Under the pieces are notes generated by a model, which saw nothing but the letters and a program-made list of their open reading frames with translations, was not told where the DNA came from and did not search any database. A program made the position numbers and the translations under genes. A DNA stretch of 64,000 nt from Monosiga brevicollis MX1 (lineage: Eukaryota; Opisthokonta; Choanoflagellata; Craspedida; Salpingoecidae), in the NCBI RefSeq assembly GCF_000002865.3, contig NW_001865050.1, forward strand, positions 146,536 to 210,535. The letters are read 5' to 3'. Below, in pieces: positions 2,678 through 10,256 of the stretch (position 1 is the stretch's first letter; the number at the start of each line of letters is the position of its first letter).

Positions 2678-5590
2678 TCAAGCCAGCTTGACACACACAT
2701 CACGCACGACCTGCAGACAACGGTAAATCTGATCTTCCTCAATGCACAATGGGGGCTTGAAACTGCGCGCCGGTGCAGGCCCGGAATGAGGATTGAGGAT
2801 GGCCATGAAAGAAAGGATATGCCTCCCGCACGGTGCGCACATTGCTCGTTTAGCCACATCCCATGGAATAGTACATACCGGAGGACATGTGAATGAATGC
2901 CACCCTTGCCAAGAACAATACCATGATCCAGACACTCTTGCAGAATGGCCGGCATGTGCGGGTGTTTCTTGGCAGCTGACGGCACGCGCAGGTGGAGGCC
3001 TGCCGACATTGGGATCATGGGACGCGTGACACCACCACAGTTGCAAATACAACGCTTGGCCTTTGGCAAGGAGAAAAGACGACGAGTCGAGCGAATCGGG
3101 CAAAGGCCAATGCCTTGATCCTCTGCAAGCTAGAGCAACGCACCGAGGAACAGGCCACGACCCGTCACGCGCTCAAAGACGTGTGGGTGCTCGTCACAAA
3201 GCGATTCGAGACCGCTGCGCAAGAAGGCGCCCATACTGGCGGCGCGAGCAACGAGATTATCTTCTTCAATCGCAGCCATCACGGCCAGGCCTGATGGAGT
3301 TGAGAGGCGTGCACACAAGAGCAAAGGAGCGCTGGTTAATGGAACGCAAAAGGGACAGGCGTGGGGCTCCATCACACGGCATGGCAGCAACACACAACAA
3401 AACGGAACAAAATGAATGGACTTGTTGCCTGCCATTCATCAAGTGCTCACCAGCGGCAGCAGCGGGGGGGTTGCCACCGAAGGTGGAAAAGAGCTTGGCA
3501 TCTTCGATAGCCTCGGCCAATTCAGTACGACAAACTACCGCGCCCAGGGGAAAACCATTGCCGATCGGCTTGCCTGCATGTGCAGAAACGATTTGGCAGG
3601 CCAATGGTCAGCTATCTACTTTCAAATCGCTCAAGCTCACTGTTTGAACCCCTGTTGGAGAATACCAACCCATTGTCACGATATCCGGGATGACGCCATC
3701 CCGTTCAAAGCCCCAAAAGGTGCCGCAGCGTCCAAAGCCCGTTTGCACCTGAACCCCAGGAGTGCGAGGAGGAGAACGATGGTAAATTTGAAACTGATTC
3801 CGCCCATTGCCCTCAAATTTTGACATTTCGCCTCTGGGCACAAACCTCATCGGCAATGGTGATGCCCCCCAATTGCTGCACATGGTCAAACACCTCCTTC
3901 AAGTACTCGTCGGGCCAGTCGACGTTGCCGCCGACCCCCTGGACAGTCTCGGCGATGAAGGCTGCGGGAGCGCTGCACGTGGGATGATATCAGGCAGGCA
4001 AAGGGTGAAGGAAGATCTGATGGGACAAAAAAAAAAAGTTGCGACTGTAAAGCACGTGGCAATCGGCTCAGATATCATCGGATCGTACGATTCTGCCGTG
4101 CCATCACCGTCCAGTACCGCCTTGCTGCTCGCCACGCCCTCTTCCAAAGTCTACTCATGAAGCATGGATATGAGCCCAGCTGACAGCGAGAGCTCTTGAT
4201 GAAGTTGATACTCATGTTGCACGTTTCTTACCCAGGGCATTGGAACCACAGCTGTACGAGAAAACTGGACCCCGTCGCCGCGAACACAGGAGCACAATGG
4301 AAATGCAGCAAAGCATGAGCAGTGTCAGGGCGCCGCCACTACGCACACCTGGCTACCGCGTTTGATGGTGGCCTGGCATTTCAATCCACAAGCTTCTTGA
4401 TTGGGGTCCATACCGCAGACGCGTCGCTGCCCTTGCTAGCGCTGATGCCGGTGGAGGAGGATGAGTTGATCTCGTTGATGGCAGAGGTGATGCCATGATA
4501 GCAGTTCTGGTGTTTGCACGAGAAGGTCCGTGAGAAACAGGCACTCGAGCCCACACTCATACACTCTTACATGGCTACTCAAGCGACTGCGATGCTGACC
4601 TCGATGGCTACGATTCGCTGGCGACCCGTGTAGTCACGGGCAATTTGCATGGCCAAGTCGTTGGCTTCAGAGCCACTGTTGACCAGGAAAACTGACCAGC
4701 CCTGACCGGACGGGATTCAAGCGAGCCGATCATCGACACGCGACAACAAGATGACTTGAAAGCGTCACAAAAGGCACAAATACAGCGTGCAAGCACACGA
4801 CTCGTTGCCCCGAGAATGGAGAAGAGGTGCGCGACGCAAGGAGGCCAACCTTGCCAGTGGGTGATTCGGGCATCTTGCTGATGAGTGCGTCGATATAACT
4901 AAAGGCCAGACAGGAAAGAGGCTCAGAAACGCAGTAGCGCATGCACCTAGGGCGAGCCTGACAAACCCAAAGGAGCCTGGGGAACACGAGGCGCGAGCTC
5001 AATATGCAATGTACCGGGGCGTAACCTCGGATAGAAAGCGAGTCGAGAGTGAGCTCTTGAGCATCTGAGCATAGACGGCCTCTGCCACGCGCGCATCACT
5101 GTGGCCGATCTAGAAAAGGCACCATCAGGAAACATGGTCAGGAATCGCAGAGTGCAAACCGGAGCAACTGAGGTGCACCCTTTTGATTCATCGCGATCCC
5201 ACCCACCTGATGGACGTTGTTATAAAAGTCAATGTATTCCCGGCCTTGGTAATCGGTAAGGACGGCTCGGCGCGCCTCGACAATCAAGAGGGGCTACATG
5301 TTACACAGACCCGGGCCGGGCCGAGCCGAGCAGGCGCCATGTTGGAGCTGTGAGGCAAACGCGTGTGGCACGCACGTGCAGAACTAGGCAGGGGGAAATC
5401 ATACCTCATCGAAAAAGGTATACAAGGATCGGGTATGATTCTCCCATGTCTGGCGGAGCTTGTCGTATGAAAGAGGCGGCGCCGCGGTAGCACCGAACCG
5501 CAGCTGCAGACGCAGCGGGGCATGGCTCACCGGCCGTGCAGACCGCATCAGGCTGCCCAGCACTCGAGCCCCATGTTGACGAATCGCCAT
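2678..5590 (-). CDS. mitochondrial class III aminotransferase (AGXT2/ETNPPL-like)
   Basis: PLP enzyme of fold type I, class III, 453 residues. Exons, 5' to 3': 5590-5405, 5293-5207, 5109-5015, 4898-4850, 4701-4600, 4506-4414, 4372-4357, 4251-4232, 4150-4108, 3961-3846, 3748-3670, 3573-3451, 3290-3144, 2999-2879, 2762-2678. The 16 and 20 nt microexons are inferred from phase and fit the family. Visible motifs: NSGSEAND (phosphate binding), AYHG-like [17 protein letters not shown] with the cofactor aspartate, [12 protein letters not shown] with the PLP lysine, TFGGNP, and VLRFKPPLCI near the end. The N-terminus [20 protein letters not shown] is basic and amphipathic, typical of a mitochondrial presequence. 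The family includes alanine-glyoxylate aminotransferase 2 and the phospho-lyases ETNPPL and PHYKPL. VQGV favours AGXT2 and the KPP motif the phospho-lyases, so the substrate is open. Confidence 0.85.
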
Positions 5591-5620
5591 TATTACGGTC
5601 TCCGTACCCCCACGATCCTA

Positions 5621-5621
<1 letters not shown>

Positions 5622-5654
<33 letters not shown>
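5622..5654. repeat. (CA)n microsatellite
   Basis: Pure CA dinucleotides about 30 bp upstream of the aminotransferase start. A shorter CA run occurs near 5750. Confidence 0.95.
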
Positions 5655-5660
<6 letters not shown>

Positions 5661-5989
5661 CACGTCAGCATCCAGATCCGCGTCCACATGCACCTCCGCG
5701 CACCACCCAGGGAAGGACGGAAGAGCAGGAGCCGTCTCGCTCCCCCGCACACACACACACACACTGAATGCGCTCTTACCGCAAAAAAAAAAATCAAAAT
5801 CAAATCAACTTGTAGGTATTGGGACTTTATGTAGATGAACATGAGGTTATTGCGGTTATGTTAATATGCAATGTTCAAGTTATTGTATTGTATTCTGATG
5901 ATAGTGCGCAGTGTGGATGTGACACTAGATTTGTCAGATGATTCGGTGTGACTGTATCTCACTGTGTTCGCTATCTGTGATTTCTTCTG

Positions 5990-5994
<5 letters not shown>

Positions 5995-6052
<58 letters not shown>
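5995..6052 (+). repeat. (CT)n tract upstream of phosphatase start
   Basis: About 29 CT units on the coding strand of the downstream gene, ending 40 bp before its ATG. One of several such coding-strand pyrimidine tracts in the window. Confidence 0.95.
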
Positions 6053-6057
<5 letters not shown>

Positions 6058-6091
6058 TCCATTTTATCTCTCAGAGTTGAAACGACCAAGA

Positions 6092-8906
6092 ATGGCAGCG
6101 GGGATGACCCGGTTGGGCGTGCTGCTGCTTGTGGGCTTGGCCCTGGCTCACAATGTGGTTGCTGTGACCGTTGAGCCGTCAACCTGTCGATCGTGCGAGG
6201 TAAAGGGTGTACTGTGGACGCTTTGGCGCCTCGGAGGGCCTGGATGAACCGCGCGCACCTGCCATGACTTGACGCTCTCTGGCTTTGCGCCTGAATGGCT
6301 GGCATGTTAGATTGTCATCTCGGATATTGAAGCCGCTTTGGAGGCAAACTCGACCCAAGAGGTGCGTAGCGCGTGGCCCGTGTCAGTTCGTCAGCCACCC
6401 CGCCTCCCCACGTTGTGGTTGATGCGTTTTGACCTCCTCATGGTCATGTGTTGGTGTTTCAGGCCATCATCTCCAAGCTCGAGGAAATTTGCAACTTGCT
6501 GCCCGCCAGCGATCGCTATCAGGTCGATAAGCAGCGCCTGCCCACCATGCTCTGCTTCCACTCCGTTGGGACGCGTAGCATGAGTTTCCAGATCTTGCGC
6601 CCCACTTCATCCTTGCACTCATGACCCCCTCCCCGCCTCGCACTTCCGATTTCCCGTCTGCCCCCCGCTCCTGATGAAATTTCTGAATCACTCTTTCGGG
6701 CTTGATGCAGTGCCGCAATCAAGTTGTGCGCCTGCTGCCCCAGCTGAATCAATCTCTGGACTCGATTGTCACCAAGGTACGTACACCCGCCGCGTGGCCA
6801 ATTCCCAGCAGCCGTGGCCCGCCGTACCCACTCAACTCGTGCATGTGGCCGGTCGCACTGCAGTACTCGCCCCGAGCCCTCTGCTCAATGCTAGGAACGT
6901 GTCAAGTCGATTGCTGTGCAACCCCGTATCTGCCGGAACAAATTCACATTGCCCTCACCACGGACCCCTCGGAAATGGTTGTCATGTGGACCACCTTGGA
7001 CGTACGTGCCTGGCCTGAACAGCAGCCAGTCGCCCCGAGCCATCCATCGCCTTTACCTGCTGTGGCCTGTAAAGGCTGTACTCACCCCATCTGCCTCATG
7101 TTTAGGCCACGCCCACCCCCACGGTCATCTTTGGCACATCATCGACAGACCTGAACCGCAACGTGTCGGCTACGCAAACGTCCTATTCCTATGGTGGTTG
7201 GAATGGTCACATCAATACGGCCAAATTGACTGGTCTTGCTCACAACACCACGTACTACTACCGCGTCGGGGATGCCAGCGTGGCACCCGACTACTGGATG
7301 AAGCCCGCTTGGAGCCAGCCTCGCGAGCTTGCCTTTACCACCCCACTCCCAGCTGGCCCCACCCAGTCCACTCGCATCGCTGTCATCGGCGATGCCGGCG
7401 CAACTGACGCCAGCCTGCTAACGTGCGCCCCTGTTTCTGTGTTCCCCCGTACCCCCTTCTTTGAAGCCAAACATGTGGCCCGTTCTCACCACCACCGACC
7501 CATGTCCTTTAGGTTTTCTCGTCTCCTCATTGAGCGAGACAGCGCATATCAGTTGTTGCTGCACGACGGTGATATTGGGTGCGACTCGACTCGTCCGGCA
7601 ACACAATTTCGCTTCAGATCTCATCTGTGAGTCCCTTGCTCTTTTGTCGGTATAGCTATGCAGATGGCTACCAAGCCATCTGGGATGAGCACATGCGCAA
7701 AATGGAGAGCATTGCGGCCTACGTGCCCATGATGACCTCGCCAGGCAATCACGAGGGCTTTTACAACTTCCACCCCTACAAATACCGCTTCACCATGCCG
7801 GCCAACGAAAGCGGCTCTTCGGATCCTCTGTACTACAGCTTCAACTACGGCAACATGCATATTGTCTCGCTCAACTCGGAAGGCTTCATGGGTCTCTCCG
7901 CCCAAGCCATCACACCGACCTCGCCCATGTACACGTGGCTGGCCAAGGTCAGAGCGCCTACCCATTGCTTGCGCAAGGCCCTGGCTTCTTCGACACATGC
8001 TCACGTGCTTGAGGCCTCTTTCGCTGCCCAGGACCTTGCTGCCGTCAACCGCAGCGTCACCCCCTGGCTCGTGGTGATGCTCCACCGCCCTCTGTACTGC
8101 AGCGAGCACGTATGTGTGGACACCTCCACCTGCCTTCCCTTGCATTCGCGCATGAGACGCCACAGGCTTGGCTGACCCTACCCCACGCTTTTCCAGGATC
8201 ATGATTGTGAGGCGGAAGCCACGGTGCTCCGCGACGGCCTTGAGGCACTCTTTGTGAACAACTCGGTGGATCTGGTTATCCAGGCGCATCGCCACAACTA
8301 CCAAGTGACCTGGCCCACGGCATTCGGAACCAACACCAGCCTTGACTACGTGGCCCCGACCGCCCCGGTTTACATTGTCAACGGTGCCGCAGGGGTACGT
8401 ATTCTGCTGCGTCCCTCGGTGCTGAGCGCATGGAGTTGTTGCCCTGGGCAAAGTGGCGACCGTCTCGGTTCTCGACCCTGTGTGCAATCAAGCTAACCTG
8501 TGAGTGTTCAATCTCTCTCACTCTCTTTCTCCTCTGACCTTGGCTCTGTAGAACAAGGAGCATACCATGGGACCGGGCTCTTGTGAGCAATCTTGGTGCC
8601 GCATTGGGCTCGAAGAATATGGCTACGGTTGGTATCGAGCGGGCAATTTGAGTGTGCGGCGTGTGCATGTTCAGACTTGTTATCCCATCTTTTTTTTTTT
8701 TTTTTTTTTTTTGTTTGTTTGTTTGTTTGTTTGCTTTGTTGTTTTGTTTTTCTAATTGGGACACGCTGGGTGCCATGCACGGACCAATAGCCATTATGAC
8801 AAGCAGTGACCCCACCAAGCTGCAATGGACTTATTACGCCTCGGCTGATGGCAGTGTGCTGGACGAGTTTACGATTACCCGACCCTCGCACCCCATCGAA
8901 GCCTAG
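6092..8906 (+). CDS. secreted saposin-B / purple acid phosphatase fusion
   Basis: Metallophosphoesterase of 529 residues in 12 exons: 6092-6199, 6311-6361, 6463-6522, 6711-6776, 6864-7001, 7106-7422, 7513-7578, 7656-7947, 8032-8109, 8197-8394, 8552-8651, 8791-8906. Residues 1-25 form a signal peptide (LGVLLLVGLALA). Residues 30-110 form a saposin-B-like helical domain with cysteines in the expected order (CRSCE, EEICNLL, CRNQ, ALCSMLGTC, CC). Next come the N-terminal beta domain of purple acid phosphatases (PEQIHIAL, TTYYYRVGD) and the catalytic domain. All seven metal ligands are present: GDAG, GDIGYADGY, GNHE, HRP and AHRH. The usual GHxH glycine is alanine. Saposin modules bind lipid, so a lipid-associated or lysosomal phosphatase is likely (inference). 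Acid sphingomyelinase has a comparable saposin-metallophosphatase layout but a different catalytic family. Confidence 0.88.
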
Positions 8907-9116
8907 GAGACATTTGTTGTGGTCGCTGACGACAACATCATCGTACACTTGATATCAATTCAGGATTTCCAAAATCTTCTCTGACCAGCTTTGTAGCCTG
9001 ATGGCGCTTGTTTTCCAGCTTTTTGTTCTATCCACGATGCTCGCACACCAATTGGGCCACTCCGGGCCTGGACTTGATCGCGGCGAGAAGGAGCGGCCCG
9101 CCTTTGGATTGACCCA
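8907..9116. other. convergent spacer, phosphatase / Hikeshi
   Basis: 210 bp between two convergent stop codons. Only 3' UTR sequence is expected and no ORF is supported. Confidence 0.6.
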
Positions 9117-10256
9117 TCATCTCCAAAAGGTGGGGTCGTGTGCCAGCTTGCTCTTGAAGGTTTCATACCACTTGTTGATACAACCAATGGGAAACCAGCT
9201 ATCACCACCCTGTGCTGCGCGAGCGGCTGCCTCTTGCTGCGTGACGGCAAAGCTACCCACAAAATCCACGAGGTTTTGCGCAGTGTAGTCGATAAAGGCA
9301 GAAAAGTCTGACGCGTTGGACACGCTGCGGAAATAGAGCGATGGAGCGATGGGAACGTCGGTCAAAAGCCAAAACGAGAACGAGAAGGAGATGAAATAAG
9401 CGCAGATAGGAGGCACCGATAACGGTAATCGACCATCTCTGAAACTGGCCGGCGGTAGCTCGGGAGCATGCACGCACCTAGACTTGTAAGCCGCAGTCTT
9501 GCCCATCAGCTCCTGCAAGGGCTCCAAGGAAACGCCAATCTGAGCAATGTCTAATGAAGGCTGCTGGCTCATGGCCCCAAACGGCATGTCCGTGGCTGCA
9601 TGTGGCTTGACCTGGCCCAGAGAGCAAGTCCGAAAGAACAACGGAGTGGATGGGTCATGAGACACTGGCGGTAGGCATATCCTCCCCGTCGTGGTGCAAG
9701 CGCAGAAGGCATCATCGCATGGGGCGAGTGCAAAGACCAGGAGAGCTTTGTACCTTGACAATGCGAAAAAGCGCCGAAGGCTTCTCGTTGCAGATATAAC
9801 CGAGGTAGTGCCAACCTTGCTCCGACCCGGGCCAACAGATGTAGATGCCAGCTCCAGCCCCATCAGGCAAGGGTGCTTGTGTGAAGACCTGAACGAGCAC
9901 GACATGGACATGACCAGCACCAGGCCGCATGGCGCATGGGCGCAAATGAGTACAACCCCAAGATGATGAGCGACATGAAGCAAGCCAGGGACTTGGCCGC
10001 ATGATGTGAACCATGCATATCAAAAGATACGATGAAGCCGCGAGATAGCCACGTACGGAAATGTGGTTGACTGACTCGGGAGCGGGCAATGGGAAGACAA
10101 ATTGCGTCCCTTCCGGATTGACCTGGGGTCGCCAAAGCATCAGAGCGTAAGGATGGCACGTGAAGGGAGCGGAGCAATGTCTTCAGCACGTCAAAGCGGG
10201 TGTACCTGTTCCGGGTTGAAGTCGACCAGGCGGCCTGGTACGAGCAGACCCAGCAT
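9117..10256 (-). CDS. HIKESHI: Hikeshi (Hsp70 nuclear import carrier)
   Basis: Carrier that binds ATP-form Hsp70 and takes it through nuclear pores during heat stress by contacting FG repeats. Five exons: 10256-10206, 10122-10057, 9888-9754, 9611-9478, 9324-9117, encoding 197 residues, the same length as the human protein. The start MLGLLVPGRLV matches the conserved N-terminus. Further landmarks are QFVFPLPAPESVNHI, LGYICNEKPSALFRI (the Hsp70/nucleoporin-contacting region), PFGAM, AQIGVSLEPL, NLVDFVGSFAV, and KWYETFKSKLAHDPTFW at the C-terminus. All junctions are GT-AG and in phase. It is divergent with TOM22, with 854 bp between the two starts. Identity is very likely. Confidence 0.95.

Follow-up and report, generated by a model that had tools for sequence, protein, structure and literature searches.

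Acid sphingomyelinase is composed of an N-terminal saposin followed by a two-metal phosphatase, as described in the accessible part of PMC5062611. According to the same text, its saposin supports the hydrolysis of sphingomyelin without added saposins, and in the human enzyme the hydrophobic face of the saposin is directed at the zinc site. In acyloxyacyl hydrolase, which acts on a bacterial lipid, a saposin-like subunit is the likely LPS recognition part (PMC1483240, accessible part). Saposin-enzyme fusions are already known as a kind. For a fusion of a saposin with a purple acid phosphatase (PAP), no description was found among the literature matches listed, the coverage of which is partial; in its accessible text PMC4046809 mentions neither "phosphatase" nor "saposin". 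That of PMC3716720 places choanoflagellate PAPs in a tree.

Here we describe such a fusion from Monosiga brevicollis, a bacterivorous choanoflagellate close to the origin of animals. PAPs are usually regarded as enzymes for soluble phosphate esters, and a PAP that carries a saposin of its own would suggest lipid substrates; if true, this would make the combination of saposin and metallophosphatase a repeated evolutionary route, reached here from a different branch of the fold. The gene lies in a stretch of 64,000 nucleotides, referred to as the window (G000:C45:146536-210535), and the scans took in the Monosiga brevicollis genome (39.5 Mb, 57 contigs).

Gene model and the saposin-phosphatase join

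The gene was rebuilt on the forward strand at window positions 6092-8906 as 12 exons with 1590 nt and 529 residues, and the start, end and 529-residue length given in the initial annotation are the same in this rebuilt exon chain. The 11 introns are 77-188 nt long and all have GT-AG ends. Six of them contain one or two in-frame stops each, and splicing is therefore required for the whole protein; the other five (introns 2, 4, 5, 6, and 8) have no in-frame stop, and three of these (introns 4, 6, and 8) are also a multiple of three in length. The features of the gene, in window coordinates, are:

6092-6199, 6311-6361, 6463-6522, 6711-6776, and 6864-7001, + strand: exons 1-5 of the rebuilt model
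6092-6163, + strand: start codon and hydrophobic, signal-peptide-like N-terminus (residues 1 to ~24), in exon 1, read from the sequence
6182-6905, + strand: saposin B domain (residues 31-109), exons 1-5, from the SapB_1 match, the saposin D alignment and the cysteine gaps
6864-7001, + strand: exon 5, one unbroken exon with the last two saposin cysteines, the linker and the start of the PAP N-domain
6933-7318, + strand: PAP N-terminal domain (residues 119-212), PF16656 (Pur_ac_phosph_N), 83 bits, E 2.3e-23
7373-8301, + strand: Metallophos catalytic domain (residues 231-427), PF00149, 68.7 bits
8362-8867, + strand: PAP C-terminal region (residues 448-517), PF14008 (Metallophos_C), 48.7 bits
8904-8906, + strand: stop codon TAG of the rebuilt model

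By reading of the sequence, the signal-like N-terminus is MAAGMTRLGVLLLVGLALAHNVVA, and the 529-residue protein has nine sequons. A CT dinucleotide run is found at about 5996-6052, just 5′ of the start codon, and a similar run also occurs shortly 5′ of the start of another PAP gene of the genome (L023).

A close examination of the region between the two halves shows that exon 5 alone reads YSPRALCSMLGTCQVDCCATPYLPEQIHIALTTDPSEMVVMWTTLD, that is, the end of the saposin and then the start of the PAP, the former closing with ALCSMLGTC and the latter opening with YLPEQIHIALTTDPSEMVVMWTT. The linker from the saposin to the PAP N-domain has only ~10 residues and includes a CC pair (C112, C113). An open frame of 155 codons at 6687-7154 spans exon 4, intron 4, and exon 5 with no stop, and within it exon 4 supplies a further saposin cysteine. 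Since exon 5 and this open frame each hold both parts, the join is independent of any predicted intron. The order of saposin and then PAP in one protein, as first annotated, is thus upheld by the Pfam matches as well as by the content of exon 5. Third-position GC is alike in the first 330 nt (0.691) and in the rest of the coding sequence (0.707). We also counted the in-frame open chains from the ATG to exon 5: six cysteines in saposin spacing are present in 3 of the 45, all of them variants of the model, although the count used nine hand-chosen donor words including the model's own and is therefore a plausibility check and no test. Taken at the level of the DNA, the saposin-PAP fusion is confirmed as one real gene.

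On both sides of the gene, frames are found on the opposite strand:

4579-5617 (4579-4716, 5138-5293, and 5399-5617), - strand: class III aminotransferase-like pieces, upstream, reading away from the PAP gene
9117-10182, - strand: Hikeshi-like gene, downstream, reading towards the PAP gene

When joined, the aminotransferase-like pieces match PF00202 with 30.4 bits, just under the cut-off of 30.5, and pieces of the frame at 9117-10019 (- strand) match the Hikeshi C-terminal domain (PF21057) with 50.7 bits. The saposin-PAP gene therefore seems to be flanked by oppositely read genes.

The saposin and phosphatase domains

The six cysteines of the saposin domain (residues 32, 35, 63, 74, 102, and 108) have gaps of 2-27-10-27-5 and follow saposin B-type spacing over ~80 residues. 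A saposin had been annotated at about residues 30-110, with both SapB families named for its verification. SapB_1 (PF05184) matches residues 31-67 of the whole protein with 40.2 bits (cut-off 25.2, E 3.4e-10) and a 96-residue piece with 43.2 bits (E 3.7e-11), which substantiates the domain, whereas SapB_2 (PF03489) gives no match to the whole protein at E up to 1, which counts against a textbook member of the family. Unlike the Pfam match, the phmmer alignment with saposin D spans the SapB_2 half too. Saposin D (5u85), the best solved match of this part, aligns over 79 residues (31-109) with 35.4 bits and E 1.2e-7 when the 96-residue piece is used, and with 30.5 bits and E 1.5e-6 when the whole protein is used. 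Its cysteine gaps are 2-27-10-24-5, differing from those found here at one position, and in the printed alignment the NST sequon at N49 is in line with an NST of saposin D. Saposin D itself is a free activator cut from a multi-saposin precursor and is not fused to an enzyme. Chains of saposin C, SP-B, saposin A, and saposin B rank below it as solved matches, and prophytepsin (1qdm), which has a saposin-like insert, matches the saposin piece in part.

In the phosphatase half, PF16656, PF00149, and PF14008 are each above their own cut-off in the 529-residue model, as expected by the initial annotation, and follow the order of high-molecular-weight PAPs. The fifth Pfam match of the protein, PhoD_N (19.4 bits, cut-off 30), overlaps the PAP N-domain stretch and is below threshold. 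Among solved proteins, kidney bean PAP (1kbp/4dhl) matches best, with 128.5 bits over residues 118-460; its chains align with the PAP part only, from residue 118 onward. The PAP fold is common to both proteins, as are seven positions (D237, D267, Y270, N300, H384, H423, and H425) that align with the kidney bean PAP motifs and that we take to be the PAP metal ligands (D, D, Y, N, H, H, H). Together, the Pfam domains and this alignment bear out the proposal of a complete PAP with all seven metal-ligand positions. Two local differences from the plant enzyme are seen: kidney bean PAP has GHVH where AHRH is found here, and the first histidine of the plant NHH stretch is an aspartate, the other histidine being kept. 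Domain order, the one-exon fusion, the ligand set, and the cysteine pattern can all be read directly from the gene.

Other phosphatase and saposin loci

An exon scan of the genome with PF16656 gave 17 places at E up to 10, some of them within one gene, and 10 with E below 1e-3, the window's own included. The replacement of G by A in the GHxH motif had been regarded as unusual in the initial annotation, which does not hold within this genome: among the nine PAP loci in which the motif was found by a regex scan of 20 fetched loci and window positions 6001-9000, three have AHxH, namely AHRH in the window, AHEH in L027, and AHHH in L031. We consequently reject AHRH as a special feature. Outside these nine are L024, which PF16656 identifies as a PAP locus although the pattern did not match it, and four weaker places below the PF16656 cut-off that likewise lack a pattern match (L028, L029, L030, and L034); five further regex matches (one each in L032, L035, and L041, two in L038) were discarded by eye as not PAP.

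When the window saposin was compared by tblastn with the 20 loci (L022-L041), a single match with E below 1e-3 was obtained, in L035. This locus was considered as a second saposin-PAP and rejected, being instead a homologue of acyloxyacyl hydrolase. The loci with features of their own are:

L035:3878-4843 (G000:C54, about 1,087,900-1,088,850): homologue of acyloxyacyl hydrolase, matching 5w7d with 168.9 bits
L033:2778-4523 (G000:C55, about 245,800-247,500), - strand: PAP encoded in a single long open frame of 581 codons from stop to stop
L036:3415-4735 (G000:C30, about 137,400-138,750), - strand: weak saposin domain, with both SapB_1 (16.2 bits) and SapB_2 (18.9 bits) below cut-off

The L035 homologue has a signal-like start, a saposin (PF20825, 79.1 bits) with cysteine gaps of 2-25-10-24-5 and the start of the large subunit, and it represents a family of LPS-deacylating enzymes in the genome of this protist. 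In L022 and L023 the signal-like stretch abuts the PAP N-domain directly, and the cysteine-rich N-terminus of L033 matches no Pfam family, saposin included, at E up to 0.1. In L027 (about 3375-6550; G000:C44, about 274,400-277,550) the AHEH PAP has, by eye, cysteine-rich stretches of CGWC type upstream of its N-domain, and it may be a further PAP to which a cysteine-rich head has been added. Frames near the L036 domain contain a proline tail rich in repeats as well as, by eye, more saposin-like pieces, and the locus is perhaps a multi-saposin precursor.

A saposin head was seen in one PAP gene, that of the window. For the remaining PAP loci the search is weak, since it overlooks saposins interrupted by introns, and the genome Pfam exon scans missed even the window's own saposin. 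Among viral contigs the search for relatives with the same domain order gave one pattern match and among prokaryotic genome contigs six, none of them confirmed, with a single-protein query that reaches close relatives only. NCBIfam, a prokaryote library, gave no family for the protein.

Proposed function and comparison with known systems

As to location, membrane binding, and substrate, we infer that the protein would enter the secretory pathway and be secreted or delivered to a lysosomal or phagosomal compartment, that it would be N-glycosylated, and that its saposin would fold with three disulphides. At acid pH the saposin may open and bind an anionic membrane, and it could then either anchor the PAP at this membrane or raise lipid phosphomonoesters towards the two-metal site, where the phosphate would be taken off the lipid or off esters near the membrane. 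Candidate substrates are phosphatidate, ceramide phosphate, and the lipid A phosphates of eaten bacteria. The reading that we tentatively prefer, at close to an even chance, is a secreted or lysosomal/phagosomal PAP whose own saposin would tether it to a membrane or present lipid phosphomonoesters to it. We counted in favor of this reading that both halves are above Pfam cut-offs, that the cysteines have saposin spacing, that the ligands are intact, that one exon and one open frame hold both parts and that third-position GC is alike in the two stretches. Presentation of the enzyme to lipid or membrane substrates, as in acid sphingomyelinase and acyloxyacyl hydrolase, is plausible by analogy. 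In a study of marine stramenopiles, saposin B families, labelled as digestive enzymes, are among the groups picked out for phagotrophs (PMC8163842, accessible part). Counted against lipid presentation is the PAP N-domain, which lies between the saposin and the catalytic domain, unlike the arrangement in acid sphingomyelinase, and the saposin may therefore not reach the active site. The absence of a SapB_2 match, the weak-looking donor of intron 3 and the lack of a confirmed relative in the viral and prokaryotic searches also speak against the preferred reading.

The same intervening N-domain favors the main rival, in which the saposin is a mere membrane or vesicle tether or a signal for lysosomal sorting, with the PAP acting as a conventional, broad-range phosphomonoesterase on soluble phosphate esters derived from food. 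The saposin-like insert of plant aspartic proteases acts in vacuolar sorting, and the insert-bearing prophytepsin is the partial match to the saposin piece mentioned above. Phosphate esters and anhydrides are, moreover, substrates that PAPs cleave under acid conditions (PMC3716720, accessible part). Six in-register saposin cysteines are not obviously needed for sorting alone, an argument that falls short of exclusion, and we regard this rival as quite possible, if somewhat doubtful.

A further alternative is that the saposin is cleaved off after secretion and functions separately from the PAP, as a peptide with antimicrobial or membrane-loosening activity. There are precedents in the accessible parts of two sources: Dictyostelium has a free, pore-forming saposin-like protein that is involved in antibacterial defence (PMC5890168), and other saposin-like proteins are cut, or thought to be cut, from precursors (PMC11542183). 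The short linker of ~10 residues that follows the last saposin cysteine, however, argues against a cleavage here, which we consider improbable. An artefact of the gene model or assembly, with two genes in place of one or saposin exons from another mRNA, would draw on the weak-looking donor of intron 3 (gtcgat) and on the derivation of the model from DNA alone, but is hardly credible given that exon 5 and the open frame at 6687-7154 contain both parts and that the neighboring aminotransferase-like and Hikeshi-like frames are on the other strand.

Within the preferred reading of a membrane-directed PAP, a more specific version can be formulated, which we judge rather unlikely as it stands: the protein would be a second, independent saposin-guided two-metal lipid phosphoesterase, phagosomal and built from a PAP rather than from a sphingomyelinase, that could remove phosphate from the lipid A or phosphatidate of ingested bacteria and work next to the acyloxyacyl hydrolase homologue of L035, which also bears a saposin.

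We also considered whether the protein might itself be an acid sphingomyelinase. No such enzyme is present among the 34 solved-sequence matches of the whole protein (E up to 1) or the 26 of the saposin piece (E up to 10), and ASMase_C (PF19272) is not among the five Pfam matches of the protein at E up to 1, PF14008 being present instead. This identity is ruled out by the PAP N- and C-regions together with the lack of a solved match of that kind, in agreement with the initial annotation, which had set the catalytic part apart from the sphingomyelinase family. In the genome exon scan no ASMase_C exon was found, a weak negative because intron-cut genes can be missed, and three Metallophos loci inspected for sphingomyelinase (L006, L037, and L039) are by eye PPP-type phosphatases.

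The gene shares with acid sphingomyelinase the plan of an N-terminal saposin before a two-metal phosphatase. The two differ in the linker, which has 30 proline-rich residues in acid sphingomyelinase (PMC5062611, accessible part) as against the ~10 residues with a CC pair found here, and in the PAP N-domain, which is present here and is not among the domains described for acid sphingomyelinase in the accessible text of that source. Acyloxyacyl hydrolase likewise joins a saposin to an enzyme, for a bacterial lipid, but its catalytic part has a GDSL lipase motif (PMC1483240, accessible part) where a phosphatase is found here. With no acid sphingomyelinase among the solved matches, the saposin-PAP therefore looks, from its sequence, like an assembly separate from acid sphingomyelinase, similar in plan and made of different parts.
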